Below, in pieces: positions 2 to 56,605 of a stretch of 64,000 nt of DNA. The notes beneath the pieces are model-generated. The model searched no databases. It worked only from the letters and a program-made list of their open reading frames with translations, and had not been told where the DNA came from. How positions within the stretch are numbered: position 1 is the first letter of the stretch; every line of letters begins with the position of its first letter. The position numbers and the translations under genes are program-made. Origin of the DNA: Prostheceraeus crozeri (taxonomy: Eukaryota > Platyhelminthes > Polycladida > Euryleptidae); assembly GCA_907163375.1 (NCBI GenBank), contig CAJQUW010005783.1, positions 119,114 through 183,113 on the forward strand. Reading direction: 5' to 3'.

Positions 2-420
2 CGTCAAACTATGAACAGGCCGACAAATTCAACGTTTTTTCAGCAACCGTTCTATCGGTCACAAGCGGGTTTAATTAATGCGCCATCGAACGTTCAGCCC
101 GCAGTTCCGCAAGTAAGACCAATTTTGGGTCCTGATACAACGGTATCTCGGTCAACACTCCCAAGGGAATCGAGGTTGCCTGTTGTCGAGCAACCCACCA
201 GTTATGAAAACACGGCTCAAAAATTGACTGGATTTCCGGGACAAAATACTACGTATACTGGGTTGCCGATGCATTGGCATCGAGCTGTCAGCCATAGCAA
301 AATAGGCCCACTGATGCTTTGCAGCCTACTTTAACTGCTCGGCAGGGTCCATGTTATAATTGTGGACAGTATGGACACTTAGCTCGTAATTGTCCTCAGG
401 GAAACGAGCAGCGGCGATAG
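2..420 (+). pseudogene. gag: gag C-terminus with one CCHC zinc knuckle, frameshifted
   Basis: The upstream part is a proline-, glutamine- and serine-rich linker read in frame 2. The downstream part is read in frame 1 and ends at a TAG at 418. It contains one retroviral-type zinc knuckle, CX2CX4HX4C, beginning CYNC and ending in the cysteine at 391-393, which in this family binds packaged RNA. The two frames meet near 290-320, so one indel has probably broken gag. The start of gag is outside the window. The protease ORF begins before the gag stop and overlaps it in the -1 frame, as expected for gag-pro frameshifting, but I see no convincing slippery heptamer. Confidence 0.8.
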
Positions 421-1088
421 ATACGTCCCGGCCTCTCGCCGGCTCTCGTTTGAAACGGGACTCAGCAAATATAGCAGAAATTCTTGTTGGTGACCAGATA
501 GTTAAAGCTCTGGTTGATACCGGGGCAGATGTGTCGGTATGTAATAGTATATTAGTGCATGATCAGCATATTATCCCGATTCCTAATGTGTCCTGTATTC
601 AAACTGCAAATGGCGAAAAACTTCATATTTTGGGAACTACTGTCATTTATTTTCAGATAGGAATTTGCACAGTATATCACACTTTTTTTGTTTCTGCCAA
701 TCTATCCACTAACATGGTTTTAGGAATGGATTTCCTAGGTGATTATGACGGTGACGTGGACGTGAGCACTAAAACCTTGCATTTACCTCGACTGGGTGTT
801 CAAGTACCTCTTCGCGAACGTCGTACTACGAACACTGTGCTTTTTAAAATCGCTATCAATAATACAGTTGTTCTTCAGCCGCACTCAGAACAGCTGCTTT
901 CAGCAAGAATTTTGATGAAAGGAAAGTGTCCAGAACCGTTAACGGGTATGGTCATGCCCAGTTCAGAGACGGACGATCTTGGCGTGTTTGTTCTGCCGAC
1001 AATTTCGACCGTTAAGAAAAAGGAAGTCACCATATCTGTTTGCAACAACTCTTTGCAACATGTTACTCTAAAGAAAATACAGCAGTAG
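390..1088 (+). CDS. pro: retropepsin-type aspartic protease of the TatD-bearing Ty3 element
   Basis: The 232-residue frame contains the active-site motif LVDTGAD followed by a hydrophobic run, and a later G-M-D-F-L motif in the position of the retropepsin flap/C-terminal hydrophobic segment. The enzyme would dimerise and cut the gag-pol polyprotein. The ATG used here is arbitrary; synthesis most likely depends on frameshifting from gag, whose frame overlaps by about 30 bases. The ORF stops just after the RT frame opens, with a 49-base overlap in the -1 direction. It is unclear whether that junction is a programmed shift or a lost base. The residues after the protease core are the usual linker to RT. 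Confidence 0.85.
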   Translation: MSSGKRAAAIDTSRPLAGSRLKRDSANIAEILVGDQIVKALVDTGADVSVCNSILVHDQHIIPIPNVSCIQTANGEKLHILGTTVIYFQIGICTVYHTFFVSANLSTNMVLGMDFLGDYDGDVDVSTKTLHLPRLGVQVPLRERRTTNTVLFKIAINNTVVLQPHSEQLLSARILMKGKCPEPLTGMVMPSSETDDLGVFVLPTISTVKKKEVTISVCNNSLQHVTLKKIQQ

Positions 1089-3397
1089 CCAATTTCGAAT
1101 TGATTTCCGCAATGTATGATAGCGTAAATTATATTCAAGACGTTTTTCCAAGTGATGTTGCAGCTCAAGTAAATCATGTGACTCTTGAGTCGCAATCAGA
1201 GGAGCAGTCTTCCGAATTAACTGCTCAAGAACGTCAAGAATTGGATAGCATACTTAAATCGTATGCTGACGTGTTTATGGCAGAAGGAAAGCCATTAGGT
1301 AGGGCAGTGAACGCTCAGCATTTTATAAATACTGGGGATCACCCTCCTATTCGTCAACCTTGTCGACGGGTTCCACCCTCTCAGAAGTTAGAAGTTAGCC
1401 GCCAAATACAGGAAATGTTGGATCAAGGCGTTGTTTCACATAGTAGTAGTCCCTGGGCTAGTCCCATCGTTCTTGTCCAGAAGAAAGACGGGACTTTGAG
1501 ATTTTGTGTTGATTTTCGAAAATTGAATCAATGTTGCCGATACGATAGCTATCCCTTGCCCAGGGTCGATGATGCTTTGGATTCTATGGGAGGGGCTCAA
1601 TACTTTTCGGTACTTGATTTGAAGTCTGGTTATTGGCAGATTCCCTTGGCGGAGGAGGATAAAGCAAAGTCTGCATTTGTTTGTCCACAGGGTCTTTATG
1701 AGTTCAATGTTCTTCCATTCGGTCTGGCGTCAGCTCCTCCCACTTTTCAGCGCATGATGGACGAGAAGTTGAGAGGGTTAATTGGAGAAATTTGTTTAGT
1801 CTACCTTGACGATATTATTATTTTTAGTCGTAGTTGGCAAGATCATTTGTGTGATATTCAATTGGTATTAGACAGACTGCGACTTGCTAATCTGCAACTC
1901 AATACTAAAAAGTGCCAATGGGGACTTAGCTCTGTCAAGTATCTTGGTCACATCGTGACGTCTCAAGGTATTAAGACTGATCCTGAAAAGACAAACAGAG
2001 TTAAAGAATGGCCGACGCCAGCAACTGCTAAGCAAGTACGAGAATTTTTAGGTTTAGCGTCTTATTATCGCAGATTTGTGCAAGACTTTGCGAGATTAGC
2101 TAAACCGTTGCACGAATTAACTAACAAAGACAATACTTTTGTGTGGACTGATCGTTGTCAGGAAGCGTTTGACTCTCTTAAACGCTGTTTAACATCCACT
2201 CCGATTTTAACCATGCCAGATTTCACTGAGGCTGGTGGTGCTTTCATTCTTGATACTGATGCCTCTGGCTACGCCATAGGTGCTGTCCTCTCACAAGTAC
2301 AGCATGATGGAAAGGAAAGGGTTATTGCGTATGCAAGCAAAACTTTGAATCGAGCTCAAACTTCCTACGCCCCTACGAAAAGGGAGATGCTTGCCCTAGT
2401 AACATTCATCGACCACTTTCACGTATACTTGACGGGTAAAAAGTTTTTAGCACGAACAGATCACAAAGCACTTGAATGGTTGAAATGCTTCAAAGAGCCT
2501 AGAGGGATGCTTGCGCGCTGGTTGCAAATTTTGGAAGAATTTGATTTCGATTGCTTATACCGCGCCGGAACCTCGCACAAAAACGCAGATGCTCTCTCTC
2601 GCTTGACTAATGCGCCAGACGAAGGGACGTCAGACCCTCCGAATCGCATGGATGGTGATGATGTTGTTATTTTTAGTCTATGGTCCCCAGGGGCTGGGGT
2701 AGATGAAATGAAACGCAAGACTTCGGCTGATCAAGACTTGGCGCAAATTCTGTTCTGGAAAACTCGTTTATCATCTTCCGACAAGCCATCTCCTAGACAA
2801 CTGGAAACATGCTCACAGGAAATAAAGAACATTGTTCGATTTTGGGAATTTCTTGTTGTGGAAGATGGTCTCTTATATCGGTTAGATGGCGATAAGAAAA
2901 AAATAATTCCACCAAAAGACGAGCGAATGGCTATTATCAACCAATGTCACTCAGGGATGGGCAATTCTCATTTGGGCCGTGATAAAACTTACCACAAACT
3001 GCGAGCAAGGTTCTGGTGGCCAGACATGAGACATGATACCACGACGTGTTTGAACAGATGTGAGGTATGCGTTACCTTTAAGGGGCCTATTCCAAAACTG
3101 CGACATCCCATGATGCCAATCGTAGTCGGAAGACCAATGGAATGTGTTGAAGTTGATCTCATAGGTCCACTGCGTAAGACTAAGAGAGGCAATCGTTACG
3201 TCTTGACTATGGTTGACTTATTTTCAAAATGGGCTGAGGCAATTCCCCTTCCTAACAAGGAAACGTCTACGGTAGCTGGGGCATTCCTTAGAGAATGGGT
3301 TTGCCGTCATGGAGTCCCTGATAGAATTCATTCTGATAAGGGACAGAATTTGAATCAAAAATTTTTCGAGAATTGTGTAATCTTTTGGGTTCCATAA
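1040..3397 (+). CDS. pol: RT, RNase H and N-terminal half of integrase
   Basis: Reverse transcriptase occupies roughly residues 110-330: it has the conserved D in the VLDLKSGYWQ block and the catalytic YLDD at about 255-258. RNase H follows, with TDAS near residue 405, a conserved E in KREML and a TDHKAL motif. The integrase HHCC zinc domain lies at about 634-678. The first two catalytic aspartates of the DDE triad are seen in VDLIGP and in HSDKG. The frame is then lost: downstream conserved integrase sequence continues in the next frame, consistent with a one-base deletion near 3372. All motifs upstream of the break look intact. The product would copy element RNA into DNA and insert it. Confidence 0.92.
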   Translation: MQQLFATCYSKENTAVANFELISAMYDSVNYIQDVFPSDVAAQVNHVTLESQSEEQSSELTAQERQELDSILKSYADVFMAEGKPLGRAVNAQHFINTGDHPPIRQPCRRVPPSQKLEVSRQIQEMLDQGVVSHSSSPWASPIVLVQKKDGTLRFCVDFRKLNQCCRYDSYPLPRVDDALDSMGGAQYFSVLDLKSGYWQIPLAEEDKAKSAFVCPQGLYEFNVLPFGLASAPPTFQRMMDEKLRGLIGEICLVYLDDIIIFSRSWQDHLCDIQLVLDRLRLANLQLNTKKCQWGLSSVKYLGHIVTSQGIKTDPEKTNRVKEWPTPATAKQVREFLGLASYYRRFVQDFARLAKPLHELTNKDNTFVWTDRCQEAFDSLKRCLTSTPILTMPDFTEAGGAFILDTDASGYAIGAVLSQVQHDGKERVIAYASKTLNRAQTSYAPTKREMLALVTFIDHFHVYLTGKKFLARTDHKALEWLKCFKEPRGMLARWLQILEEFDFDCLYRAGTSHKNADALSRLTNAPDEGTSDPPNRMDGDDVVIFSLWSPGAGVDEMKRKTSADQDLAQILFWKTRLSSSDKPSPRQLETCSQEIKNIVRFWEFLVVEDGLLYRLDGDKKKIIPPKDERMAIINQCHSGMGNSHLGRDKTYHKLRARFWWPDMRHDTTTCLNRCEVCVTFKGPIPKLRHPMMPIVVGRPMECVEVDLIGPLRKTKRGNRYVLTMVDLFSKWAEAIPLPNKETSTVAGAFLREWVCRHGVPDRIHSDKGQNLNQKFFENCVIFWVP

Positions 3398-5781
3398 AGT
3401 CACGTACCACTGCATATCATCCTCAAGGGAACGGAGGGGTTGAGCGTTTCAATCGAACGTTGAAGCAATTAATGTTGTCCCATGCGGATGTAGAGAGAGA
3501 GGAATGGGATCTGACACTGTCCTACTGCCTTTGGGCTTATAGGTCCAGTACACACATCACAACAGGGTTCTCTCCTGCGGCCGTCACTTATGGGCGAGAA
3601 ATGAGAATGCCCGTCGATTTCGAACTGGATCTAGACACTGTTGTCGAACGAGAAACCTCCGACTATATCTATGAACTGCAAGAGCAGCTTGTGCAGACGT
3701 GGGAGACGGTGAAAAAATGTGCGGTAGTCGAGCAGGAACGCCAAAAGGAAAGCTATGACAGAAAGACTACAAGTACTTGCAAATACCAGATGGGTGACTT
3801 GGTAATGTATTTCAAAACTGCTGTCCCAAGGGACAAACAAAAGAAATTTTTCAGACCTTGGGTAGGTCCCTGGATCGTGGAAAGACGATTCTCAGATAGT
3901 ACCTACCAGATCAGAGATATTGGCGGCAGGAAAACTTTAGTTACTCATGTTGATAGGTTAAAGAAATTCCCATGTTCACCTCCTATCTCCCAGCAACGGG
4001 TTGGGGAGGTGGAAAGAGGAGAATTACCTACACGATTGTCTGCAGATATCGAAGTAGAAAGTAATGCGACAGATGAGACGGCACAGATGATTTGCGATTC
4101 GGACTTGGATGGGGACATAGAAAGTAATGTAACAGAAGACACAGTAGAAATGATACAAGACTCTGATCCTGATGCGGGAATTAACAGCACCAGTAGTGAC
4201 ACTGTCGAAATGATGGACGATGACATGTGTGAAATCGAGATCAATCATATTTCTTTACAGATGGCAACTGCTGCTGTACCAGAAGATGGTAAGACTACCA
4301 GAGACCAAGTAATAACATTTTTGTTAGCAGGACGGGCTTTGCCCGAATGTCCTGCCGGCTGGAACCGTAAAATGAAAGACAGATGTCTTTCCCGAGCAGT
4401 CGTCCAGGCGGCTCTCATAGCGCCGACTGAACAGCAGTCAGCCCTGCAGGACAGGGTGCGCGAAATATGCTCCAGCTGGTCAGTTCCTCATCACCAGTTT
4501 ATGAAGTGCGCCATGCGTATGGGGGATTTGCCGGAGGATACCGGTGATCTCCATCCCAATCGACGGCGGCATGTCCGCAAATTAAAAGGGCAGCAAAAGG
4601 CCCTGCGCTCGGGGAGGGATTCTGACTCTCAGGTGGGGCAGCTGGACGACGCCGTCCTGGTCGTCAGCGCAGAGGAGTCGCGTGGGGTTATCGACCCGTT
4701 GGCTCGGGAGGACCTCCCAGTAGTGATAGGGAATCCAATTCCCACAGTCGCTAGGGGGGTTCGACTAGGTCCGGTTGGTGCTCCGCGTGATGACGACGTG
4801 CGACTGCCAATCATCATAGAGGATCCTCCTCAGCTGGTTGGGCAGGCTGAACCCCTCGGGGCCGGTCTACCTATAGACGCTGAAGAGGATCGTCCTGATA
4901 TGATGGCTCGAGGCGATCCGGGGGGCGAAGTTGAGCGCCCAGCTCCTGAGGGTTTGGAAATGCCCGAACTACTGTTACCATCAGGCCCAACCGTTTGGCG
5001 AGGTGACTCCCATATTCATTTGTTCGACAGCTGTCGCGCTGCTGGCCTTGCGGGGCATTTGGATGACATGGTGGACGCCATCAACGCCATGTCATGTATA
5101 GTAGATATACGGGACAAAGTTTCTGTCTGGGACGAGTCGGACTTCCAGGATGATTTCCCTAATGTCCGCATCGTCATGGCTTTTGGGTTGCACCCACGTC
5201 ATGCTGGAGATTGGTCTCCATCTCTGGAGGCAAGGCTCCGTAGACGTGTGAACTCCAGCCTAAACGTCAGGGCGATCGGAGAGACGGGAATTGATCTCAA
5301 GTGGAACGTCCCAATGGAGGCCCAACGTCGGTGTCTGGCTGACCAGGCACAGCTCGCTTACGAGCTTTCACTTCCTCTCATCCTTCACTGCAGGGAGAGG
5401 GAGTGGGGGGAAGTAGCTGCCCACAACATCTTGGCAGAGGAGCTGCTGCGGAATGTCAGCGCCGCTCAGATCATCGTCCTCCACTGCACGTATGTTGACC
5501 GCCAAATAGTGCGCTCACTGGCGGATCTCTTTCGTAATCTCTATTTCAGTATTGCTCCGATTCTCGTAAACGGAATGGGTCACCGAGACTGTGCCAAGAG
5601 TCAAACCGTTCGGGCCATTCCGCTGGAAAGGATGCTGGTGGAGACCGATGCCCCACATCTGGCAAGAGTTCCTACGGCCACCGATCGAGTTATAACTAAA
5701 ATCGCCATGCGTAGAGACATCAACGAAGAGCATCTCCGCAACATTTTAGAAGCCAATTTCAATCGAGCATTCCGACCGTAG
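3373..5781 (+). CDS. integrase C-terminal half fused to acidic repeats and a TatD-type nuclease
   Basis: The 802-residue frame begins within integrase. It carries the third catalytic acid in NGGVERFNRT, the rest of the core, and a GPY/F module (FRPWVGPW) near residues 155-165. An acidic segment (about 220-290) holds three degenerate copies of a block ending in a D-T-V-E-M-like motif. Residues about 300-415 form a basic, Trp/Cys-containing segment I do not recognise, followed by a Pro/Asp-rich linker. From about 540 to the end is a complete TatD family TIM-barrel hydrolase: HIH in DSHIHL, E in IGETGID, H in LILHCRE, H in VLHCTY and D in VETDAPHL are all present. TatD proteins are metal-dependent DNases/3'-5' exonucleases of about 260 residues, matching this length. 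There is no stop between integrase and TatD, so they form one reading frame, though the frame is cut from RT by the upstream frameshift. Confidence 0.93.
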   Translation: MCNLLGSIKSRTTAYHPQGNGGVERFNRTLKQLMLSHADVEREEWDLTLSYCLWAYRSSTHITTGFSPAAVTYGREMRMPVDFELDLDTVVERETSDYIYELQEQLVQTWETVKKCAVVEQERQKESYDRKTTSTCKYQMGDLVMYFKTAVPRDKQKKFFRPWVGPWIVERRFSDSTYQIRDIGGRKTLVTHVDRLKKFPCSPPISQQRVGEVERGELPTRLSADIEVESNATDETAQMICDSDLDGDIESNVTEDTVEMIQDSDPDAGINSTSSDTVEMMDDDMCEIEINHISLQMATAAVPEDGKTTRDQVITFLLAGRALPECPAGWNRKMKDRCLSRAVVQAALIAPTEQQSALQDRVREICSSWSVPHHQFMKCAMRMGDLPEDTGDLHPNRRRHVRKLKGQQKALRSGRDSDSQVGQLDDAVLVVSAEESRGVIDPLAREDLPVVIGNPIPTVARGVRLGPVGAPRDDDVRLPIIIEDPPQLVGQAEPLGAGLPIDAEEDRPDMMARGDPGGEVERPAPEGLEMPELLLPSGPTVWRGDSHIHLFDSCRAAGLAGHLDDMVDAINAMSCIVDIRDKVSVWDESDFQDDFPNVRIVMAFGLHPRHAGDWSPSLEARLRRRVNSSLNVRAIGETGIDLKWNVPMEAQRRCLADQAQLAYELSLPLILHCREREWGEVAAHNILAEELLRNVSAAQIIVLHCTYVDRQIVRSLADLFRNLYFSIAPILVNGMGHRDCAKSQTVRAIPLERMLVETDAPHLARVPTATDRVITKIAMRRDINEEHLRNILEANFNRAFRP

Positions 5782-5803: not shown

Positions 5804-5814
5804 AAGGGGGGGAG
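5804..5814 (+). promoter_or_regulatory. polypurine tract before the 3' LTR
   Basis: An uninterrupted purine run with seven consecutive G lies after the stop codon of the TatD-bearing ORF and 3 bases before the TG of the LTR. This is where plus-strand DNA synthesis is primed in LTR elements. Confidence 0.75.
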
Positions 5815-5817
5815 TAA

Positions 5818-6973
5818 TGTAACAGGGTTGCTTATTTGTTTATATGTAGTAAAATTATAACTAGTACTTAACGTAAATATTTTAATTATAGGTGTTGGTA
5901 TTTTCACTATTGATGTGAAGAACTAAATTGTATATAGGTATTGCTCACAAATCTGGGAGCATTGGCGCAATTTTCTGGTGAAGGGTTGTAAAGTTATATC
6001 ACATTCAAGTGATAATTGAGGATTTCACGGAAATGTATATATTGTATATAATTGTAAGGTGTTGGTGGCTTCCGATTTATGGGGTTTTGGGTGGTTTCTG
6101 GGTAAAAGTATAGGCAAACATAAGATAAACATGAATTAAGTATTCCTGGTGTTAGAATGTACCATTTTATTATAAATGCAATGAGTAAAGCCCACGGCGG
6201 CTAGCGTGCGCGGTCAACCAAAAACGTTGCTCTCTTAAAATTATACGGCTGATGGTAAGTCACTGCTCTCAACTGAACTAAGAAGTTTTAGGCAAGTGGC
6301 GTAGGTTTATGACATAGGTTTATGATATTTCCTTTGCGGCTAATTAATTAATCGTAAGCAGCATTATAACTTTGCCGTCGCATCTGCGGGTTACGATATA
6401 TGTAAGAAGTTAGCAAGACTTAATTTCAGCTGAATTAGGAGGTTGGGGTTTTATGATACTTCTATTTCAGCTTATTAACTGCTACCCACAACCGTTATAA
6501 CGTACCTGGGTAATACCCACAGATTCATTCGAGTTAGGGTATTACCTATAATACCTAGTAACTGGTAGGGCAGGGTTAATAACTAACCAGGCGCATCTTC
6601 GAGTGACGTTCGCGTGGCTGCTCCGGTGCTCGTCCACATCATAAAGGATTCGACGTGGTTAACTTGGAATAACCGGATCGTGATACGGAGACTGGTAGGT
6701 TTCTTACTGTAGTAATCAATTGGATTAAGGGTCTCTCATAGCTCGGTCTGTTACATATGGCTACTGGATAGGTTAAGTCGGCAAATAGTTGGTCGCATCT
6801 ATTACACCGGCTATCTGGTGCAACAATCTTACATTTTTGTTGTCGTGTGTAGCTGCTGAGAAATTTCTGACTCCAAATCCCTCAATAAAATAAATGTTTG
6901 TCTTGATTTGTTTATTTGTCTTGCTTCACCTTTCTTGGTCCTGCTTTGCATCCTACAGGCACGCGTGTGAACA
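5818..6973 (+). repeat. 3' LTR of the TatD-bearing Ty3 element (bounds inferred)
   Basis: The inferred LTR starts TGTAACAG directly after the polypurine tract and ends in ...GAACA, giving TG...CA termini and about 1156 bp. An AATAAA signal at 6884 followed by T-rich sequence suits the R/U5 end. The 5' LTR is outside the window, so the right boundary rests on termini and polyadenylation signals only. Confidence 0.6.
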
Positions 6974-8352: not shown

Positions 8353-8378
8353 GCAATATACATCATCTCCCTTTCTCA
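8353..8378 (-). promoter_or_regulatory. polypurine tract of element 2
   Basis: Read on the minus strand, a purine-rich run GAGAAAGGGAGATGATG lies a short distance before the 3' LTR and just after the pol stop. It is somewhat further from the LTR than usual. Confidence 0.5.
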
Positions 8379-11300
8379 CGATTGTTCATGAATGAATCGT
8401 CTGGGGATCTGCACATTTCGTCTCAGCTTCGATCTGTAGTTTTCCGATGTCTGGGCTGCTGCTGCGGGCTGATGATGGTGAGCACTTGGATTAGAGGGTG
8501 AATGTGCATGTCTACTATGGTCCAAGTTCACGTTTGCAAATCGGCGAAGGTACCGGCGGTTTCTTCTTAGTACTCTTCCACTTTTCATTTTGATAAGGTA
8601 ATCGCGATGTCTCATCCTCTCCACGATGATTCCTTCTCTGTCCCATTTTTTTGAGAGCGAATCTTGGATGACTACTGACTCACCAAATTGAAGGTTAGAC
8701 AATGAATAGGCCGATTTGTTATAGGCATTTTCTATTTTCTTGTGAACCGAGTTTGCATTTTTTTCCATTTCTTCCGTTGTCTTCTGCCATCCCGGTGCGA
8801 AATTCCTTCTATGGGCCGGTAACGTATCACGCACTGGATGTCCATACACCATAATCGATGGGACACGGTTATCGTAAAGAGGCGTATTCTTGTACAATAG
8901 GATTGCCTCAGCTAACCTGTCCATATCCACTCCTCCTTCAGAACGAGTAGCTCCTCGAAGCATCTTCTTCACGGTCTTGACCGCTGCTTCGGCTCTTCCA
9001 TTACTCTGTGGATATGCCGGTGATGACGTCTTGTGCGTTACACCCCATCGCTGAAGAAAGTTTGAGAAGGAGGATGCCGCGAATTGTGGACCACCATCTG
9101 ACCAGAAGACTTGAGGAACTGCTGTTTGGCTCCGCAATTCGTTGATGAGCTTGCTGGTAGGGGCGTGGCTACCAATTCTACAGACTGTGGGCCATCCCGA
9201 ATAATTGTCTACCACGACCAACCACTTTTCACCACCATATTCAGCGAAATCGGCACTGATTTCCTCGAAGGCTCTGCTTGGCAATGGTCGCGTATGCAGA
9301 GGTTCCTTAGGCAAACTTGCTAAATACTCCTGGCACGGTCTACAGGATTTAGAGGCATTTTCAATGTCCTTGTCTATACCCGGCCACCATATGACCATCC
9401 TGGCTCTTTCTTTAAGCTTTGTCGTACCCATGTGTCCGTTTATCAAGCGATTAAGCATTTCTCGTCGCATTGACTTTGGTATCACGGTCCTTCGTCCGCA
9501 TACAATGAAGTCATCATCGATCGCCAAAGTTTCTTTCATGCACCAATACGGTCGCAGTTCGATAGGAACGTGTGATTTGACGCTTGGAAATCCTTTGAGT
9601 ATCAGGGCTTTCAAATCGCTATACTCTGAGTCGTTTTCTGCAGCCCTTTTCACCTCCAGCATCCTAGCGTCGAGTGTTGAGGCTTCAATCGCTTGAAGAG
9701 ATGCAGCTTTGTGCGCGTCCTCAATGCCCTCATCGGCGCTGGTTTCTTGGGTATGTGAGAGAGGTGCACGGGAGAGTGCATCAGCGTCGGTATTTTGCTT
9801 ACCGCTGATCCAAATGGCAGTGAAGTTGTACCTGTTGAGCTTGCTTTTCATTCTTTGAAGTCGCGGGTTCTCTACCTGGTCCAACGTGTAGGTGTTGAGT
9901 ATGGGAATCAGAGGCTTATGATCAGTGACAACATCGACGTGATTGAGGCCCTCCAAGAATGCACGGCATTTGTGGAATCCCCAACAGATAGCAAGCATCT
10001 CTAATTCGATCATTGCGTACCTTGTTTCAGTATCAGTAAGCGTACGTGATCCCGCTTGAACGATTCTCCACGACTCATCATCTTGACGTTGTCGGAGGAT
10101 GAATCCCAGACCATTCAGTCGAGATGCATCTGTGTGGAGACGAGTCTGCTTCTTAGGGTCAAAATAACTCACGATGGATGGCTCTCTCACCAGGGTTTCA
10201 CACACTTGGCGGAACGCTTCTTGGTGAACCGAGTCCCATGAAAACACTGTATTCTTCTTTAACAGCGGTTGGAGCGGAGTGCAAAGCTGAGTCACCTTGT
10301 CTGTGAAGTTGCTCACTTGGTTTACCAATCCGAAAAAGGATCGAATGTCGGTTTGATTTGTTGGAGTAGGGAAGTGTCTGATTGCTTGTAGTAGCGAGGG
10401 ATCAATAGAGTATCCATTTTGGCTGATGCGGAGACCTGCAAATGTCACTTCATTGGCAGCAAAAACGAACTTGTCAGGATTCAACGCAATTTGACGCTCG
10501 TCACAGCGTTGCAGAAATGCTCTGATATCATTGACATGCTGATCGTACGTTTCGCTAGCAATCAAACAATCATCGACGATATGGTAAGTTCGAGGTAGAT
10601 CTGCTAGTACTTCATCCATGCGTCGATTAAAATGTTCGGATATGGACGATATTCCGAAAGGCGCAGACTTATAGCAGTAGCGACCAAACGGAGTAATGAA
10701 TGTTGTCAGACGCTGACTCTCGCGGTCCATAGGAATTTGATGGTATCCTTTCAAGGCATCAACCACTGTGAAGTACCTGCACTTTGACAAATCAAGACTT
10801 GAAATGAGTTCGTATGCAGTTGGACTGACGTAGCGTTCACGAACAACATGTTTATTCAAGGCGCGGAAGTCAATGCACATTCTGATCTTCTCTCGGTCTT
10901 TCTTGAGCATCACCACAATAGGAGCACACCAACAAGTTGGTTCTGTCACTCTTTCAATAACACCAAGCTGTTCCAGCTCGTCCAATTCATCTTTCAGGAG
11001 AGGCTGTAATGGTAGCGATATTCGACGCGGCGCCGTGACACTGAACGGCTGAGCATCTGGTCTGAGATGAATGTTAAACACTTCACCCGTCATCTTACGA
11101 ATTGTCTTGTCAAACACACGTGGGTAACAGCTGATGAGATCCGACTTACTAGCTGGCACGTGATTGGTTGCCGGTGGAGAAGCTGTTACTGGCTCTGGAC
11201 GACTCGCTGAGGCGTGTGTCATCTGCGTGTAACCTTCACGAGCGCACTGAGTGCGACGCACACAACTTACGATGGCGGCGTCCTGCTGCGCACACACATG

Positions 11301-11732
11301 GAATGCTGGAAAGTCACGTGGGATAATGCCAAGTGCTTTGCATGTAGACCATTTCAAAATTAATGGCTCCCCTTTCAGTTCCCGAAACACATGAATTGTG
11401 GTGTTGACCGTAGTCTGTTGAAGAGAGATGTTGGCTGTGAAATTACCGATGCTGTCTGAGAAAGTTGTACGATTCGCTGCGGAGGTTTGAGTTAACGATT
11501 GCTTGTTGAGATCGCACACACGTAGTCCCAATTTCTGGAGAATATCCGGTCCGGCAGCGTCGATATTGGCTCCGGTATCGGGCATTGCACGAAGAGACAA
11601 GTCATTAACTTTTACTCTGATGAGCGGAGGTCTGTCGTCGACCGAAGGAGTTCGTATGACACTGATGATTGAAGCTACAACAGGCTTCTGCTGCTTTGAT
11701 GAAAACTGCTGTTTGGGGCGGGAGCGGCTCAT
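8376..11732 (-). CDS. pol: pol polyprotein (protease, RT, RNase H, integrase) of element 2
   Basis: The 1118-residue ORF is in the same frame as the gag segment upstream but separated from it by a TGA. Protease: MPDTGAN near residue 52. RT: the VVDALKGYHQ block, then a catalytic box reading IVDDCL near residue 386, where most relatives have YxDD. RNase H about 540-650 with HTDAS, ELEML and TDHKPL. Integrase: HHCC zinc domain near 755-795, then the DDE acids in ISADFAEY, SDGGPQ and NGRAEA. A basic tail with His/Pro-rich end follows. The length is typical for a Ty3 pol. The first in-frame Met here lies in the end of the zinc-knuckle region, so this start is probably not used; expression would need readthrough or a gag-pol fusion. 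Confidence 0.93.
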   Translation of the reverse strand: MSRSRPKQQFSSKQQKPVVASIISVIRTPSVDDRPPLIRVKVNDLSLRAMPDTGANIDAAGPDILQKLGLRVCDLNKQSLTQTSAANRTTFSDSIGNFTANISLQQTTVNTTIHVFRELKGEPLILKWSTCKALGIIPRDFPAFHVCAQQDAAIVSCVRRTQCAREGYTQMTHASASRPEPVTASPPATNHVPASKSDLISCYPRVFDKTIRKMTGEVFNIHLRPDAQPFSVTAPRRISLPLQPLLKDELDELEQLGVIERVTEPTCWCAPIVVMLKKDREKIRMCIDFRALNKHVVRERYVSPTAYELISSLDLSKCRYFTVVDALKGYHQIPMDRESQRLTTFITPFGRYCYKSAPFGISSISEHFNRRMDEVLADLPRTYHIVDDCLIASETYDQHVNDIRAFLQRCDERQIALNPDKFVFAANEVTFAGLRISQNGYSIDPSLLQAIRHFPTPTNQTDIRSFFGLVNQVSNFTDKVTQLCTPLQPLLKKNTVFSWDSVHQEAFRQVCETLVREPSIVSYFDPKKQTRLHTDASRLNGLGFILRQRQDDESWRIVQAGSRTLTDTETRYAMIELEMLAICWGFHKCRAFLEGLNHVDVVTDHKPLIPILNTYTLDQVENPRLQRMKSKLNRYNFTAIWISGKQNTDADALSRAPLSHTQETSADEGIEDAHKAASLQAIEASTLDARMLEVKRAAENDSEYSDLKALILKGFPSVKSHVPIELRPYWCMKETLAIDDDFIVCGRRTVIPKSMRREMLNRLINGHMGTTKLKERARMVIWWPGIDKDIENASKSCRPCQEYLASLPKEPLHTRPLPSRAFEEISADFAEYGGEKWLVVVDNYSGWPTVCRIGSHAPTSKLINELRSQTAVPQVFWSDGGPQFAASSFSNFLQRWGVTHKTSSPAYPQSNGRAEAAVKTVKKMLRGATRSEGGVDMDRLAEAILLYKNTPLYDNRVPSIMVYGHPVRDTLPAHRRNFAPGWQKTTEEMEKNANSVHKKIENAYNKSAYSLSNLQFGESVVIQDSLSKKWDREGIIVERMRHRDYLIKMKSGRVLRRNRRYLRRFANVNLDHSRHAHSPSNPSAHHHQPAAAAQTSENYRSKLRRNVQIPRRFIHEQS

Positions 11733-12495
11733 CTTCGAGAAATGTCCGATCTTAGAGCATGATCGACATTTCTTCTCCTTAGCAGGGCACTTATCACGAT
11801 CGCGAGCGTGAATCAGGCCACATCAATTGCAATGCTGACCTTCGATTGGTTTGGGTTGTCGCATTTGTTTGGCTCGTCTGTGAGCAGAGGTTGCGGTCGC
11901 TAGGTTGACCGTGGAAGGCTGGTCTAGAGCCCGCTTGTCACGTTTAGCGGCTTCTTCAGCTTCGCCAATATCTCTAGCCTGGGACAATGTAAGCGATGAC
12001 CCAGCTAAGATAAGTTTCTGCACGACATCAGGATCAGCTGCACCAAGAACAATTTGATTTCGTAATTGTATGTCCTCGCACTTCGGACAGCATTTAGGGA
12101 AGTTGCAACGTCTGGCTAGATCTTGTAACTCGACCAACCAGTCGTTAAATGGTTCACTGTCACGTTGAGTACGGCGAAAAAAATGTCTAATCCACACGAT
12201 CTCATTGATATTGCCTTTGATGTAACGTTCAAGAGCACGGATAATTTCGTCGACATTTCTGATGAGCCGCAGGAAGAGAAAGGTTTCTGATGACTCGAAG
12301 TGTAGCGTAGGAAAGGCTTTTGTGTAGAGCGTCAAGTCGCATTGCTGCTCGTTCCGTGGCATCCGTGATGCTTGAAATACCGGACAAACGTTCGAATGCA
12401 CTCCATTTTAGACACCAGTCGTCAAACAGGTCGCGATCAGTCTCAATGTCAAATTTTGGTCCGTCCTTACGCAGTTGGAAGGAATGCGACGCCAT
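11733..12495 (-). pseudogene. gag: gag of element 2, one frameshift and one in-frame TGA
   Basis: The N-terminal 88 codons start at an ATG whose A is the last base of the 5' LTR. The rest is in another frame and runs to a TGA at 11823-11825; the two meet at about 12255-12290, consistent with one indel. The body has the RNA-packaging gag pattern (FNDWLVELQDLARRC, then a helical segment around LILAGSSLT). After the TGA the same frame continues with cysteine/histidine pairs (one CX2C interrupted by the TGA itself, then CRSCSKIGH) before reaching protease. The TGA therefore sits inside the first of two zinc knuckles. It could be a CpG-decayed arginine codon or a readthrough site. Confidence 0.82.
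12477..12494 (-). promoter_or_regulatory. primer-binding site of element 2
   Basis: Directly after the 5' LTR (minus strand) the sequence reads TGGCGTCGCATTCC, with the TGG expected to pair with a tRNA CCA end. There is no spacer. I cannot assign the tRNA. The site doubles as the first codons of gag. Confidence 0.6.
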
Positions 12496-15530: not shown

Positions 15531-18500
15531 TTATGGAGTACACTCAGTCTCGTAATCGTTCAGATACCGCGGTCGGTTCCGCGTTCTCCTCGGCCGTTCT
15601 CCTTGGTTTTCTCCTCGATTGTTCGTGGGCATCGGATGGAGCACACTTCGTTCGCGTACTGTACCTCCACTTCTCCAGGGAGTAGTAGTAACAGGTAGCG
15701 ACGAACTACCAACGCCGATCGCACTGTTAGATGAACCGTCAGGCGAGAAACTCGGCTCAACCGCCTCGTATGCCGTTTCAAGATATCGATCTTCGGTATC
15801 TCGGCATTCCTTGTATCTCGGCTTCATATTCGATTGTTTAAGAACGGAAGTACGCCCTCCGGGATACTGGACACGATAAGAGGTGTCTCCTACAGTCTCT
15901 GTGACTTCACCAGGGTGCTCGTAATCTTCCCCGCTACCTCTTCGAGTGTAAACCTTCTGTCCTATATCGTAGTTTCTAGTGATGCCTTTCCTCCCCGCAT
16001 AACGCTTGGAAAGACTCCGCGCCTTCACCTCTATCACTTCACCTCGGGTGGACAAGTACGATATCATCTCTCTTCCTAGCAATCGGCTAGCTGGTGTCTT
16101 CCCGGTAGACTCATTGAATGTGCTGCGGATATCGTACAAAGCTTTCTGTAGCCTACGCTCAAACGAAACCTGTGGACAAGACAACTTCATCTTAGCCAGT
16201 CTAGACTTCAAGGTTCGATGCATCCTTTCAACAGTGCCATTGGCCTGAGGATAATAAACCGACGAGAAGTGGTGAGAAACTCCGCAAGTTCTCAAAAATC
16301 CTTCGAATTCCGTGCTCCTAAAAGTTGCCCCGTTATCAGAGATAACTCTCTCGGGCATTCCGAACAACGCAAAGATCCTTCTCAGCTCCATAACAACCTG
16401 GCGGGAGCTACCATTTGGTATCTGGACCGCAAAAGGATATCTCGAAAACAAATCAATAACTGTCAGAAGCACATTCCCTTCGGTGGACTCACTAGGGCCA
16501 GTCAGATCAATAGCAACGGCCTTCCACGACTCCTCCTCCTTGTCAGCTACAGGGACCGGTCGAGACTTATCGGGAAACCCATTTCGTGAACAAGCATCCC
16601 ATCGATCACAATACTCCTTGATGTCGTGAGCTAGCCCAGGCCAGTATACAATGGATCTAAGGGCGGCTTTCATTTTACTGATGCCAATGTGGCCCTGATG
16701 ATACTCAACAAGCAGCTTATGACGAAGACTACTAGGCACGACCAAAGTATCTCCTTTGAAGATAAGAAATCTATCACCTATCCATTTGACAGACAGGCTG
16801 TCACGAAGTGCTGAAAAGTTTCCGAGTTCTTTCAAGTCGATCCCTCTCCACTGTTTGGAGATAGCCTTAGCTACCCGACATAACTCCGGATCCATCACTG
16901 ACTTCTCAGCGACCTCTGAAAATTGTATCGGGATGACATCACTGAGAAAACAGAGCGTTACTTCTTCTCTCTCGCCTTCCGTTGCCTCTGTGGAACTAAC
17001 TGGATTTCGAGACAAAGCGTCGGCCAGCACGTTATCCTTTCCTTTAATGTGCTCGAAGGAAAACACATATGATTGCATGTTTATGATCCATCTCCTTAAC
17101 CGCATAGACAGAGAGTCGACAGGTTTCTCGAAAAGACTCAATAGTGGCAAGTGGTCGGTTTGAACCTTGAAAGTACGTCCAATGAGAAAATTCCTAAACC
17201 TGTTAAGCGCAAACAAGACCCCAAGGCATTCCTTTTCGACTTGCGAATATCTCTTTTCTGTGTCTGTAAGGCTACGCGAGGCAAACATGACTGTCTTCCC
17301 TTTCTGCAACAAGACTCCTCCCAAACCATGTCCGGATGCGTCACTTTGTACAATAACCTCCTCATCAGGTCGAAAAAATCTACGTACATGTATATCCTTC
17401 ACCGCTGCCTTTAATCTACCGAAAGCTATTTCATCCGTTTCCCGCCAGCTCCATGTTTCCTGAGACAAAGATTGCCATAACGGCTGTAGTAGAGTACTAC
17501 AATGTGGAACGTTTGAGTGACATACGTAGGCTGCTAGGCCTAGAAAGGAACGCAACGAAGCGGCACTCTCAGGGGCAGGCGTGCCCAGCAGATCATCAAT
17601 TAGCTTCCTCGAAACCATAACCCCCGACTGAGACCATGAATATCCGATAAATTCAACTGAAGATTGGTGGAAAGAACACTTAGCCTGATTTAGTTTGACG
17701 CCCATATCATCGATCCTAGTGAGAACTTTGTCGAGCATAGCTTCAGATTCATGCTTCGATTCGGCGAAAATAAGTACATCATCCAGATAACACACTGCAT
17801 TCGGTATGTCTGACAAAACGTCCGACATGAACCTCTGGAAGATTTCGGGTGATGACGAGAGACCAAACGGCAGTTTGTTAAAACGAAAACGACCAAACGG
17901 AGTAGAGAATGTGAGAACCTCACGACTGTTCTTGGCGACCGGTATTTGCCAAAATCCGTTCCGACAATCAAGTTTAGAGAAAAAGGAAGCCTTCTGAACA
18001 CGACTCATCAGCTCTTCAACCGTAGGCATCTGCAGCTCAGGCCTTTTCACATGTTTGTTGACGTACCTGAAATCGACACAAAGTCTCACGTCACCTGACT
18101 TCTTGTAGCCTACTACAATAGGTGAACACCAGTCGCTTGGTTCCTCAACCTCCTCAATGACACCTTCCCGCACCATCTTCTGCAATTCAGCCTGCACGGG
18201 CTCGCGTAGAGCAATAGGAAGTCTACGAGCAGGAAAAGATCGTGGCACAGCGTCATCTTTCAGAACGACCTGGCAAGCTCTAGACATAGGAACACAACTT
18301 GGACCCTCGAAAACGGAAGATACCACCATGACCTCGTTTTCAGTACGGATAATACCCAGACCCTGGCATAAAGCGAAACTCAGCAATGCTGGACCGTCCT
18401 CTTCACAAACATAAAACTCAGATGAAATGCTCTTAGTCTTGTAGGTGACCTTCAAATGAACGGTACCTAAGCAATTCAACTGCTTTTTGCCGTAAGCCTT

Positions 18501-19076
18501 CAAGCTTTTGGAAACCGGGGTAAGAGTATAACCACGTGAGAGATCCTTCGAACTAATAACGTTAACGAAAGCACCTGTGTCTACCAACGCCTGAATTGGA
18601 GTCCCATCAATTGCAACTTCGCGAACCATATCGTAACCGCTGTTGGATACATGGAAAATATCGACCTCCTCGGCATAACTTTCAACATGAGAAACCGAAC
18701 GTTCGGTACAACATTTGGCATAGTGGCCTTTCCGATTACATTTTGAACACATTCTGCTTCGGGCAGCACAGTTGGGACTGTTGGCTAAATGCTCTGATGA
18801 ACCACAACGGTAACAGGCCCGATTGGCACCTGACTGGTCCTTAACTTTTTCCTTATTTGCCTTAGTCTCCTTCGATTTACCGTGACTTTTGGACGCGTTA
18901 TGTTTTGGGTTTCTATTGGACTCAACGGCATGAACATCAGCCTTAACAGGAAAATCAACCTTTGTCCGATCAGCGCGAGCAGTTTCCCAGGCTTCCGCCT
19001 TACGTAAGGCTAACTCAAAATCCAAAGTACTAGGATCCTCTGCCAAAAGCCTTTCTCCTAACCTGGAGTCCCGCAC
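15531..19076 (-). CDS. pol: gag C-terminus plus pol polyprotein of element 3
   Basis: The 1181-residue ORF begins inside gag. Two zinc knuckles (CYRCGSSEHL... near 88 and CSKCNRKGHYAKC near 109) bind RNA. Protease: LVDTGAF near 166. RT: CRNGFWQIP block and YLDD near 430, with the LPFGLSSSP motif between. RNase H about 580-690: QSDASGHG, EKECLG, QTDHLPL. Integrase: HHCC domain from about 790 (HQGHIG to the Cys pair, the latter reading C-D-R-W-D-A-C) and DDE acids in AIDLTGP, SDNGAT and NGTVERMH. A basic C-terminus follows. Gag, protease and pol share one frame, so no frameshift signal is needed for pol. The upstream gag frame overlaps by 19 bases, and the shift between them looks like a one-base gain in a G run. 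All catalytic residues appear present. Confidence 0.95.
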   Translation of the reverse strand: MRDSRLGERLLAEDPSTLDFELALRKAEAWETARADRTKVDFPVKADVHAVESNRNPKHNASKSHGKSKETKANKEKVKDQSGANRACYRCGSSEHLANSPNCAARSRMCSKCNRKGHYAKCCTERSVSHVESYAEEVDIFHVSNSGYDMVREVAIDGTPIQALVDTGAFVNVISSKDLSRGYTLTPVSKSLKAYGKKQLNCLGTVHLKVTYKTKSISSEFYVCEEDGPALLSFALCQGLGIIRTENEVMVVSSVFEGPSCVPMSRACQVVLKDDAVPRSFPARRLPIALREPVQAELQKMVREGVIEEVEEPSDWCSPIVVGYKKSGDVRLCVDFRYVNKHVKRPELQMPTVEELMSRVQKASFFSKLDCRNGFWQIPVAKNSREVLTFSTPFGRFRFNKLPFGLSSSPEIFQRFMSDVLSDIPNAVCYLDDVLIFAESKHESEAMLDKVLTRIDDMGVKLNQAKCSFHQSSVEFIGYSWSQSGVMVSRKLIDDLLGTPAPESAASLRSFLGLAAYVCHSNVPHCSTLLQPLWQSLSQETWSWRETDEIAFGRLKAAVKDIHVRRFFRPDEEVIVQSDASGHGLGGVLLQKGKTVMFASRSLTDTEKRYSQVEKECLGVLFALNRFRNFLIGRTFKVQTDHLPLLSLFEKPVDSLSMRLRRWIINMQSYVFSFEHIKGKDNVLADALSRNPVSSTEATEGEREEVTLCFLSDVIPIQFSEVAEKSVMDPELCRVAKAISKQWRGIDLKELGNFSALRDSLSVKWIGDRFLIFKGDTLVVPSSLRHKLLVEYHQGHIGISKMKAALRSIVYWPGLAHDIKEYCDRWDACSRNGFPDKSRPVPVADKEEESWKAVAIDLTGPSESTEGNVLLTVIDLFSRYPFAVQIPNGSSRQVVMELRRIFALFGMPERVISDNGATFRSTEFEGFLRTCGVSHHFSSVYYPQANGTVERMHRTLKSRLAKMKLSCPQVSFERRLQKALYDIRSTFNESTGKTPASRLLGREMISYLSTRGEVIEVKARSLSKRYAGRKGITRNYDIGQKVYTRRGSGEDYEHPGEVTETVGDTSYRVQYPGGRTSVLKQSNMKPRYKECRDTEDRYLETAYEAVEPSFSPDGSSNSAIGVGSSSLPVTTTPWRSGGTVRERSVLHPMPTNNRGENQGERPRRTRNRPRYLNDYETECTP

Positions 19077-19477
19077 CCCAATAACAAAACATCCCTGAGC
19101 AAACTAGCTTTATCACTAGTATATTCACAGTCCTGTACCATTCTCCGGAGTCTACACGCAAACTGTCCGGCGCTCTCACCTTCGCTCTGCGAGGCATGGA
19201 TAAATTCTCTTCTACGGATGAGCAACGAGGAGCTAATTTTAAAATAGCTATCCATACGATCAACAATTTCAGTATAAGTATTCTTGGGTTCCGGTAACCC
19301 ATCTAAGATGCTAAGTCCGTCTCTCCCCACACACATTTCAAGCAACGCCGGCTTGTCCTTATCGTCTACAGAATTGATAGAACAGAAATTACCAAATAAC
19401 CTTTTGAAGAAACGCCAGTCCTCCGCGCTGGGATTAGCAGGCAAATCCGGCTGTCTAACAACTTTAGCCATTTTCAC
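19058..19477 (-). CDS. gag: gag N-terminal part of element 3, ends early by a +1-base shift
   Basis: This 139-residue frame starts 82 bases after the 5' LTR. It has a gag-like helical core with a W-R-F-F-K-R-L-F motif and a segment around QFACRLRRMVQDC that resembles Ty3 gag capsid sequence. It stops just after GCGTPG because of a one-base difference in a GGGG run near 19060-19075. The next frame continues directly with the remaining gag and both zinc knuckles. A sequencing or assembly error at the homopolymer is as likely as a real mutation, since everything downstream is intact. Confidence 0.9.
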   Translation of the reverse strand: MKMAKVVRQPDLPANPSAEDWRFFKRLFGNFCSINSVDDKDKPALLEMCVGRDGLSILDGLPEPKNTYTEIVDRMDSYFKISSSLLIRRREFIHASQSEGESAGQFACRLRRMVQDCEYTSDKASLLRDVLLLGCGTPG

Positions 19478-28319: not shown

Positions 28320-29595
28320 ACAATCTCGTTCAAGATCTGATTCAGCACCACTTCAACAGTTTTCTACACCAGAAGATATAGATAGAAAAATAAAGGAAGT
28401 GATGCCTCATGCAACTGTTTATAAAGAAAATTGGGCTTACAAATAGTTTAGAGAATACAACGATGCTAGAAATCAGCATATTTTACAAATTAATTCAACA
28501 GAACTTATGGCATTGAACTCCATTGAAAAGATGTCAAAAGGCAATGTCGCTTTTCTGCTGCCCCTTTTCATTAATGACATTAGGAAAAAGGACGGCTCAA
28601 AGTTTCCCGGAGAGAGTCTAAGACAATTGATTTCTTCTTTATTCCACTATTTTCACTATGAGCTTAAACGTGAATGGAACTTTTTCAAAGACGCTGAGTT
28701 CACTGAGGGAGTTCAAGCTCTAGATGCCTGCATGAAGAGTGCAACAAGGGAAGGAATCGGCCTATATAAGAAAAAAGCAAGCTGCATTTCTAAGGATACT
28801 GAAGAGAGGCTTTGGACAGACAATCACTTGGGAACAGAATCTCCTCGAAAGCGGCTAAGGACATTGATTTATTTAATTGACTTATATTTCGGACTCAGAG
28901 CCAGAAAGGAACATCGTCAATTGCGGTTTGGAAAGAATTCTCAAATCCAGCTCCTCAGTGACCCGGATTCCAGTAAAATGTTTTTACGATATACTGAAGA
29001 CTGCACCAAAACTAGAAGTGGCGGTTTACGAGACGGTGTCATCGAGGCCAAATGTGTTGACCGATTTGAAAGTGACAGTCCAAGAAACATCGTAAAAATT
29101 TACAACTTGTACATTAGTCATCGACCAAAAACAGGAAGCAATGTTCATCACTTTTATCTTCAGCCGTTAGAAAATCCCACATCAGAAAAATGGTTCAAAG
29201 ATCAAGTCGTAGGAGAAAACAAGTTGGGAGAGTATATAAAAAGTTTGTTTGCTGATGCCAATATTGAAGGTTTTTATACCAATCATTCGTTGAGGCGAAC
29301 GAAGATCTCCCGGCTATTCCAAGGAGGGGCAAAGGAGGACATCAAGAAGGAAACTGGACACAGCAGTGATTCAGGTCTTTTGGCGTAACGAGAGCTCTCT
29401 GTGACTGAAAAAAGAAGATTTCAACAACTGTGCCAAGAGGAAAGCTGTGGTGCGACTTCTTCTGTCGAGATTACCGAGGGGAAAAAGGTAGTTATAAAGA
29501 GGACCACTGAATTGTCTGATGAGGAGGAGGATGACAAATACAAGAAGAAGATATGCCTGACCACGTCTTGGGGAACAACTAAAATCGATCCATAA
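28320..29595 (+). pseudogene. Crypton/KIAA1958-like tyrosine recombinase with a stop at the catalytic Tyr codon
   Basis: One frame runs through the block, interrupted by TAG at 28444 and TAA at 29386. The middle 293 codons have the DUF3504-type core: an N-terminal helical region (FINDIRKKDGSKFPGESL), the first arginine in YFGLRARKEHRQL, then HSLRR and GHSS near the end. This matches R...HxxR...H of tyrosine recombinases. The motif GLLA is followed immediately by the TAA, where family members have the nucleophilic tyrosine; the frame then continues with a charged tail rich in Glu and Lys. The enzyme would cut and rejoin DNA in Cryptons, or bind DNA in domesticated ZMYM/KIAA1958 proteins. As it stands it is inactive or truncated. 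Confidence 0.75.
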
Positions 29596-39010: not shown

Positions 39011-39872
39011 CTATATATACTTACTCTATGAGTTATTGTTTTTGAATCCTTTCAAAACGTTGATTATGAACAAACTCAGAAGTTATTGCTTTCATTACCA
39101 TTAATATTTTCGTATTCAAAACTACTGAATATGATGAATAGTTTCTTGCTGCTCGATAAATGAATGATCTTTTTGTAGATTATTGATATTATGCTTAAGA
39201 CGGTGCACATACATGTACATAAATGAAAGTCAAAACAAATGTAAAATAATAGGTCTACATATGACAAAACGTGATTGAAAAACAAAATTTGAATTATGTG
39301 ACAGAATAAATTATTTGATGGTTCAATGTTTAATAGTACACAGAAGATATAGGCCCACCCATTTGCTAATTCTTGCTCTGATGTCTGTATAAAGTGCTGG
39401 ATTATATATTCTACTAGGAAATATTGGGTAGTAATTTCAACTGGCTGAAGTTAGAGTACCTATTTCCATTTACCTCGCCGACATTGTTTTTCCTTATATT
39501 CTTGATTTACCCTAACATTTATCAAGCACGCATTATAAAAAGCATATAGAATCAAAATAGAATAGTAGAAGAAATGTCATTTACAGGACTGTCCCGATTA
39601 TTCGCCAAAAGATAGCCTGTACCGATGTTGTCCCGCTGTTTTGCCCTCGAAATTTTTGAAATGTAGTTGTCCCAAATCTTTGCATTTTGAAATTTGGATA
39701 CTGTCTTTGTAGCCGAAGTTAGGTGCAGCGGTCAGAATCCCTTATATACACTGTAGTCACGTACATAGGCCTCATGTCTTCTTTTGAAATACTGTTTGCA
39801 GTGATGTAAAATATATATTCGATTTCTTTCTTGGGAAAAATGAATGCAACAACATCAAGAAACGCTCTATTT
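39011..39872. other. intergenic stretch, nothing recognised
   Basis: No motif seen. It ends at the GTACAAAC target site of the next element. Confidence 0.5.
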
Positions 39873-39925
39873 GTACAAACCAGGGATGTGGAGTCCTATC
39901 ATTTTGATAGGACTCCGACTCCGGG

Positions 39926-56561: not shown

Positions 56562-56605
56562 AAGTACTTTTGGAGCTGCTCGTGGGTTAAAAACGCTTAC
56601 TAAAA

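Follow-up and report, generated by a model that had tools for sequence, protein, structure and literature searches.

A TatD-type nuclease domain at the end of pol in Ty3-type retroelements of the flatworm Prostheceraeus crozeri

A 64,000-nucleotide stretch of the genome of the polyclad flatworm Prostheceraeus crozeri (contig CAJQUW010005783.1, forward-strand positions 119,114 to 183,113; hereafter, the window) carries a reading frame in which the second half of a Ty3-type integrase runs on into a nuclease domain of the TatD family. The locus raises the question of whether such a domain belongs to the retroelement and, if so, what it would do there. The domain is almost certainly the C-terminal enzyme of a Ty3-type pol polyprotein with the order protease, reverse transcriptase (RT), RNase H, integrase, linker, and TatD. 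The fuller proposition, that TatD is a selected pol-end domain of a group of Ty3 elements and acts on the element's own nucleic acids, seems to us evenly balanced between right and wrong.

The open reading frame (ORF) at 3340-5781 (+) encodes 813 amino acids (aa), measured between stops, and Pfam recognizes two domains in it: Integrase_p58_C, of the GPY/F type, matches residues 176-209 (E-value 6.4e-10), and TatD_DNase matches residues 608-812 (E-value 2.5e-32; 112.7 bits, with a cut-off of 27). In alignments the TatD similarity reaches back to residue 556, and the start of the domain was placed at window position 4990. An initial annotation, made from the sequence alone, had described an uninterrupted frame from the catalytic glutamate region and GPY/F module of integrase to TatD, and this description stands. 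About 23 stops would be expected by chance in the 603-codon tail, and none of 5,000 first-order Markov simulations left it open; a chance open frame is thus ruled out.

Within the tail, the six residues that we take to be the metal ligands of TatD are all present (H558, H560, E648, H683, H715, and D770). The annotation had the pattern right (HxH, E, H, H, D) and the count wrong, at five positions. This ligand set is typical of the class II TatD enzymes TATDN2, TATDN3, and their relatives (PMC10085689; papers given by PMC number are cited throughout from partial text), and by its HxH motif the element's domain is classed, in the scheme of that paper, as class II (TATDN2/TATDN3 type). Aligned with 51 TatD proteins, the domain holds the consensus residue at 22 of the 28 columns that are at least 95% conserved, at 17 of 29 conserved at 80-95%, 9 of 45 at 60-80%, 24 of 62 at 40-60%, and at 23 of the 89 columns of lower conservation. 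An AlphaFold model using this alignment has a TatD barrel at its end, with a predicted local distance difference test score (pLDDT) of at least 80 in 21 of the last 27 ten-residue blocks and of 57-75 in the other six; the region ahead of TatD is poorly predicted. The top Foldseek matches in the PDB are TatD enzymes (1j6o, E-value 9.6e-14; 4p5u; 1xwy), and the predicted fold is a TIM barrel, matched best by 1j6o with a TM-score by target of 0.82. When one copy from each of the five element families described below is scored with PF01026, the values are 88.2-127 bits (cut-off 27). Nuclease activity of the domain is predicted from these ligands and this fold.

The frame lies in one integrated Ty3-type long terminal repeat (LTR) element, a member of the family we call A, whose pol is broken in the window copy between protease and RT and again inside integrase. 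Its parts within the window are as follows.

390..1088 (+): protease ORF, frame 3 (PF13975, E-value 2.3e-8)
~813-1079 (+): dUTPase-like stretch within the protease ORF (PF00692, E-value 4.5e-6, at residues 142-230)
1016..3397 (+): reverse transcriptase, RNase H, and first half of integrase, frame 2 (E-values: RVT_1 9.8e-36, RT_RNaseH 1.2e-33, Integrase_H2C2 4e-17, rve 2.5e-11)
3340..3969 (+): second half of integrase, which opens the 813-aa frame, with the catalytic glutamate region (by eye) and the GPY/F-type C-terminal domain (PF22938, the match given above)
3970..4230 (+): acidic linker, read from the sequence; low model confidence
4231..4608 (+): segment ahead of TatD predicted, weakly, to be helical and matching no known family (helices at tail residues 88-213, block pLDDT 41-69)
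4609..4989 (+): G+C-rich linker without predicted structure (base composition and model)
4990..5778 (+), stop 5779-5781: TatD nuclease domain, with ligand codons beginning at 5011, 5017, 5281, 5386, 5482, and 5647
5804..5814 (+): polypurine tract AAGGGGGGGAG, with a similar tract ahead of the 3' LTR in other family A copies
5818..6755 (+): 3' LTR, 938 bp, TGTAACA...TGTTACA; identity with the 5' LTR, 99.68%
6756..6759 (+): 4-bp target site duplication TATG, the same four bases preceding the 5' LTR

The 5' LTR lies beyond the window edge (G000:C4811:117213-118151) and is followed by the primer-site-like TGGTGGCAGCGG, recognized by position only. The second half of integrase is 96-98% identical in other family A copies (where full length), and the helical segment at 4231..4608 found no match in Pfam or the PDB. 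One copy, L023 (loci are designated by L numbers and contigs by C numbers), is 97-99% identical to the window element and lacks its breaks in pol. The order protease, RT, RNase H, and integrase, as in Ty3/gypsy elements, is read in one frame in L009, L011, L012, and L023; in the long pol ORF of L026, protease was unmatched by Pfam. Integrase has its H2C2 zinc finger (PF17921), DDE core (PF00665), and GPY/F-type C-terminus (PF22938), the last unmatched at an E-value of 0.01 in the family D copy L012. No chromodomain was matched by Pfam in the window ORFs or in five long pol ORFs.

We searched the window's own assembly (2.05 Gb, 14,165 contigs) for further copies. With PF01026, 150 of 229 first-look candidates were scored and yielded at least 150 matches, 20 of them in open frames longer than 1,000 aa; with the element TatD as query, 145 of 312 candidates were scored and yielded at least 153. 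Among the matches listed, at least 24 rows, that of the window among them, cover nearly the whole element TatD at an identity of 90% or above. Forty pieces of the assembly were fetched, picked non-randomly for long frames and score spread: 20 of them reached up to 10 kb, of which 19 are TatD stretches and one is the window's own upstream part, and the other 20 measured 2.5 kb. Together with the window they give 40 TatD loci. At 36 of these, RT or integrase precedes TatD on its strand; neither was found in the fetched part of L038, L042, L046, or L047. The TatD-bearing Ty3 elements of this genome fall into at least five families, with RT identity to the window element of 96-98% in A (where full length), 78% in B, 80-81% in C, 60-61% in D, and 59% in E. 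RT, RNase H, integrase, and TatD occupy a single open frame in 8 of the 19 ten-kb TatD stretches (L009, 1816 aa; L011 and L024, 1743; L012 and L014, 1780; L016, 1453; L023, 1797; L026, 1622), and a ninth near-complete frame, L025, is short only of the RT start. The C-terminal half of integrase and TatD share a frame at 18 of the 40 loci, window included. One locus, L001 (G000:C8477:614972-618712), has a complete TatD frame in a 29% G+C stretch of a 906-kb contig, and this stretch may belong to a bacterial symbiont or be an assembly contaminant rather than host DNA.

Further LTR-bearing copies, which the annotation had suggested looking for, are common: direct repeats of at least 300 bp bracket RT to TatD in 16 of the 19 ten-kb stretches (none in L020, L026, or L028). 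Thus TatD is carried within the element to the LTR, as the annotation inferred, and it is in frame, present in many copies, and, as described below, selected. The repeats of a pair are 91.5-100% identical, 11 pairs at 99% or more; therefore, many elements moved recently. Four families (A, B, D, and E) show clear TG...CA ends; for family C, whose repeat bounds start with TATAAC, AGTATA, or TGCAGT or at the end of the stretch, the 5' ends are not settled. Ten elements of 17 with LTR pairs were examined for target site duplications, which were found at nine (eight of 4 bp, one of 5 bp) and not at L012. At L018 (C13633), the direct repeat is 2,030 bp long and extends past the LTR into the internal part; two tandem elements seem to share one LTR there. 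L013 (C11617, family D) and L016 (C12108, family E) are inserted at the identical base of the two copies of one repeat, with the duplication GATA and flanks identical at 89.5% over 400 bp and 96.5% over 1.1 kb; this hints at a site preference or at one element replacing another. No Rfam match reached the gathering score in L012, L013, L014, or L016, where targeting of insertion sites by small RNAs was considered.

Selection on TatD was measured within families as the ratio of nonsynonymous to synonymous differences (pN/pS), synonymous divergence (dS) between families being saturated in nearly all pairs. Of 40 TatD frames extracted, 31 formed a first set, and a second set added nine: L043 and L044 in family A (97 and 95% identical to the window); L038, L045, and L046, B-like (76-90% identical to L009); L039, L040, and L048 in D; and L047 in E. 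Copies without a single open TatD frame are in neither count. Family A gives 0.215 (18 copies, 95% interval 0.127-0.367), or 0.247 with the added copies (20, 0.157-0.384), where the annotation had allowed for relaxed selection. The corresponding values are 0.283 (3 copies, 0.126-0.626) and 0.424 (6, 0.331-0.550) in B, or 0.235 with L045 as the sole addition; 0.114 (4 copies, 0.067-0.186) and 0.143 (7, 0.093-0.217) in D; and 0.152 (one pair, 0.089-0.240) and 0.154 (3, 0.097-0.231) in E. TatD is under purifying selection in these four families. For RT, RNase H, and integrase, measured on fewer copies, the values lie between 0 and 0.45 outside family C and reach 1.17 within it.

How regularly does TatD accompany these integrases? 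We compared 146 of 150 rows matching the C-terminal half of integrase in the genome, where rows are matches rather than copies and some misses of TatD may be unreal. Among the matches listed, TatD lies 0.3-8.5 kb downstream on the same strand in 37 of 39 rows at 90% integrase identity or more, which does not bear out the annotation's refuting case of a fusion unique to this locus; the count is 42 of 48 at 60-89%, 7 of 15 at 47-59%, and 6 of 44 below 47%. From the 54 rows without a TatD match, eight stretches (L049-L056), mostly with long frames, were drawn. Six of the eight are sister elements (L049 on C3890, L050 on C14069, L051 on C13034, L052 on C9249, L053 on C481, and L056 on C8277) that have a GDSL-like hydrolase domain at the end of pol, in the position of TatD. 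In L049, L050, and L053 we read the motifs GDSN, GVGVN, and (D/N)PH, presumably the GDSL/SGNH hydrolase signature. The domain of L053 scores 25.3 bits with Lipase_GDSL_2, PF13472 (E-value 2.5e-5; below the cut-off of 32.9), and that of L049 was not matched by PF13472; the best PDB match of a profile of the sister domain is 4c1b, an 'ORF1-encoded protein' that we take to be a retrotransposon esterase, at a non-significant E-value of 0.043. Neither TatD nor a GDSL-like domain was found in the piece fetched of L054 (C5281), and the 2.6 kb fetched of L055, a copy from family B, showed no TatD.

Phylogenies of three parts of the polyprotein unite the TatD elements. In a tree of RT-RNase H with 75 rows, the six TatD-element rows form one clade (support 100/100) apart from 69 others, for which TatD is absent from the precomputed Pfam lists (from tblastn for two other Ty3 elements of the window). 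The integrase tree places eight TatD rows in one clade (100/98) adjoining three GDSL rows and L054, with joint support of 94/95, the bootstrap of this tree being not fully settled, and in a TatD tree of 38 rows the eight element TatDs are one clade (100/99). Because the RT, integrase, and TatD trees each unite these elements, a single old acquisition followed by vertical inheritance is likely. It is rather unlikely that families A-C, D, and E acquired the nuclease separately from different donors, an explanation that draws on a TatD identity between these groups of 25-32%, no higher than to bacterial TatDs, and on linkers that are not detectably related. Against it stand the three clades, together with profile matches between the TatDs of A-C and D (E-value 2.5e-30), A-C and E (8e-27), and D and E (9.5e-12), though any two TatDs may match so. 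As for the donor, the annotation's captured host TATDN-like gene holds as far as the domain is element-borne, multicopy, and selected; a host source is neither supported nor rejected, the branches of the element TatDs being very long and the approximately unbiased (AU) test giving p 0.47 and 0.355 for grouping with animal TATDN2 in a tree whose bacterial and two TATDN2-type rows (none of TATDN1 or TATDN3) would neither join nor separate the element TatD and TATDN2. A step in G+C content from 0.44 to 0.56, with its change point at 4327, suits a foreign origin of the tail.

What, then, would the nuclease do? If TatD is translated as the end of Pol, it would be packaged along with integrase and RT; pol-end domains are expected in the particle beside these two enzymes, as is established for Ty3 Pol in general. 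A class II (HxH) TatD could act there as a metal-dependent 3' exonuclease, an apurinic/apyrimidinic (AP) endonuclease, or a hybrid-directed nuclease, and so might rid the complementary DNA (cDNA) of abasic sites, RNA remnants, or 3' ends that are damaged or unpaired, before or during integration. Its simplest use in the particle would be action on cDNA: trimming 3' ends, removing RNA remnants, or nicking abasic sites for repair. Human TATDN1/3 and Escherichia coli TatDs are AP endonucleases, with the HxH histidines marking class II (PMC10085689), and TATDN2 works on RNA in R-loops (PMC12709183). The dUTPase-like match beside the protease in family A, seen in the window copy and in L023 (E-value 6e-5 in the latter), would fit a concern with uracil in cDNA. 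The elements seem to have turned a borrowed repair nuclease to use in their life cycle, and we put forward the processing of the element's own nucleic acids as the benefit tentatively, as somewhat short of an even chance.

Several observations weigh against this account. The dUTPase-like match is not seen at an E-value of 0.01 in the one copy checked in each of families B-E. The element TatD is only 25-38% identical to the TatD relatives listed from the database, and it scores 103.9 with NCBIfam TIGR00010, below the cut-off of 206 that two TATDN2-type proteins (147.6, 173.0) also miss. Many TatD-element copies are broken. Family C, too young, gives a pN/pS of 0.525 (0.107-2.213), with no selection signal either way. 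The H-H-E-H-H-D ligands are retained across families A-D apart from L024, L043, and L045, which have substitutions, and L038, L039, L040, and L046, which are unaligned over HxH; in family E, the N-terminal part of TatD is weakly matched and the automatic alignment missed HxH, which was read by eye as DGHLHL at the expected place in L026 and L016. Families D and E sit on TatD branches of 2.6-2.8 changes per column, long enough that they could draw the TatD clade together. Linker and helical segment show no detectable homology between families by profile comparison, and the linker region shows none to those of families D and E or of the sister elements. The idea that every family, and the GDSL elements as well, share one acidic linker with its helical segment was dropped, at profile-comparison probabilities of 3% or less.

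Other functions must be considered beside a role on cDNA. TatD might instead counter the host and let the element evade silencing, by destroying host nucleic-acid signals or the intermediates of small RNAs or sensors, or by resolving R-loops where copies are transcribed. R-loop resolution is an activity of TATDN2, which fish express in the germline (PMC12709183), and the GDSL-like domain in the same slot of the sister elements suggests that this slot may serve changing host-facing roles. The sequence gives no pointer to a host target, however, and pooled pN/pS is without positive selection in any family, a whole-domain average being a weak test; we regard a host-directed role as improbable. 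Less probable still is a barrel that binds nucleic acid rather than cutting it, and that, standing in for a chromodomain, directs or tethers the integration complex. TatD does sit behind the integrase GPY/F module, in the chromodomain position of chromoviruses, and the shared insertion point of a family D and a family E element hints at site preference, but binding alone would not call for the six ligands, which are kept in most A-D copies with the exceptions named above, and among the other elements compared no similarity was seen between flanks. A functionless passenger, whether an assembly join or a chance capture of host or bacterial sequence, is highly improbable even though the G+C jump is as in foreign sequence and retroelements do capture genes, and an assembly join or one-off was rejected, given numerous copies spread over many contigs and flanked on either side by LTRs, five families, and purifying selection in four.

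The rest of the window holds other mobile sequence. Two more Ty3-like pol frames, at 8376-11822 (-) and 15531-19103 (-), fall far from the TatD clade in the RT tree, and TatD was not found in these two elements by tblastn. Frames at 28447-29388 (+), 39810-40604 (+), and 53980-56624 (-) are tyrosine-recombinase-like (by eye) and putatively of long interspersed element (LINE)-type RT and endonuclease.

LTR retroelements are generally taken to leave the final stages of cDNA repair and gap filling to the enzymes of the host. A selected repair-type nuclease within the polyprotein, with a sister group that has another enzyme, makes it testable whether retroelements can internalize these late steps, and the TatD and GDSL-like elements offer a natural set of enzyme-integrase fusions. 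It is conceivable, though we would not give it an even chance, that the socket behind integrase in this Ty3 clade takes different enzymes (TatD in one subclade, a GDSL-type domain in its sister, neither in the fetched piece of one element), and that TatD serves as built-in cDNA repair or end processing, in what would be the first retroelement group with a TatD repair activity of its own. TatD frames can also be very numerous without being host genes, and counts of TATDN-like genes should check for elements. In a figure legend on the giant squid genome, TATDN2 stands beside transposon-like genes in the Hox region (PMC6962438); by analogy, these loci might be TatD retroelements.

No confirmed relative came from viral-contig and genome-contig searches, and the fusion is known here from one genome. 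Searches of protein databases for pol and TatD in one protein, which scored the 7990 and 7993 candidates sharing most words, gave 6 matches (candidates of 447-1422 aa) and 84 matches (1060-3370 aa), none with both by precomputed Pfam; in a search with TatD alone, all 12 listed rows naming an organism among the best 120 of 4487 matches are bacterial. No TatD-bearing retrotransposon was found in the open-licence literature, mostly judged by titles and abstract openings. To that extent the annotation's statement that no element with this layout had been described holds for TatD, but LTR elements with other captured enzymes have been published (PMC5408684, PMC9289625, PMC6431247).

Chromoviruses, Ty3 elements with a chromodomain after integrase, likewise have an extra domain behind the GPY/F module; the clade described here has an enzyme in its place. 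Closest in kind among the captured enzymes are the Vesta and Juno LTR elements of bdelloid rotifers, whose ORF3 encodes a DEDDy-exonuclease or a GDSL-esterase: these too are animal LTR elements with an extra enzyme after pol, common to several lineages and with catalytic residues kept (PMC5408684). Their enzyme, however, is in a separate ORF3, typically expressed from spliced messages, and their nuclease is of the DEDDy type, whereas in the window clade a TatD TIM barrel ends the pol frame itself. Ty3/gypsy elements of orchids, reported from Phalaenopsis, carry an AlkB-type (2-oxoglutarate-dependent dioxygenase, 2-ODD) N6-methyladenosine (m6A) demethylase shown to be active, and have kept this captured enzyme over several replication rounds; it is a different enzyme in an additional ORF (PMC9289625). 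The giant gypsy element Burro of planarians resembles the window clade in carrying extra domains in frame within a huge polyprotein, but these are apoptosis, ubiquitin-related, env, and other domains, TatD not being named in the text available (PMC6431247). The cellular class II enzymes TATDN2, TATDN3, and relatives share the PF01026 fold and the HxH-E-H-H-D ligands (PMC10085689), and they differ from the element's domain in its distance from the relatives listed and its seat behind integrase. Enzyme capture by LTR elements is thus already known; the novelty here lies in the TatD enzyme, in its place within the pol frame, and in sister elements that bear a different enzyme.

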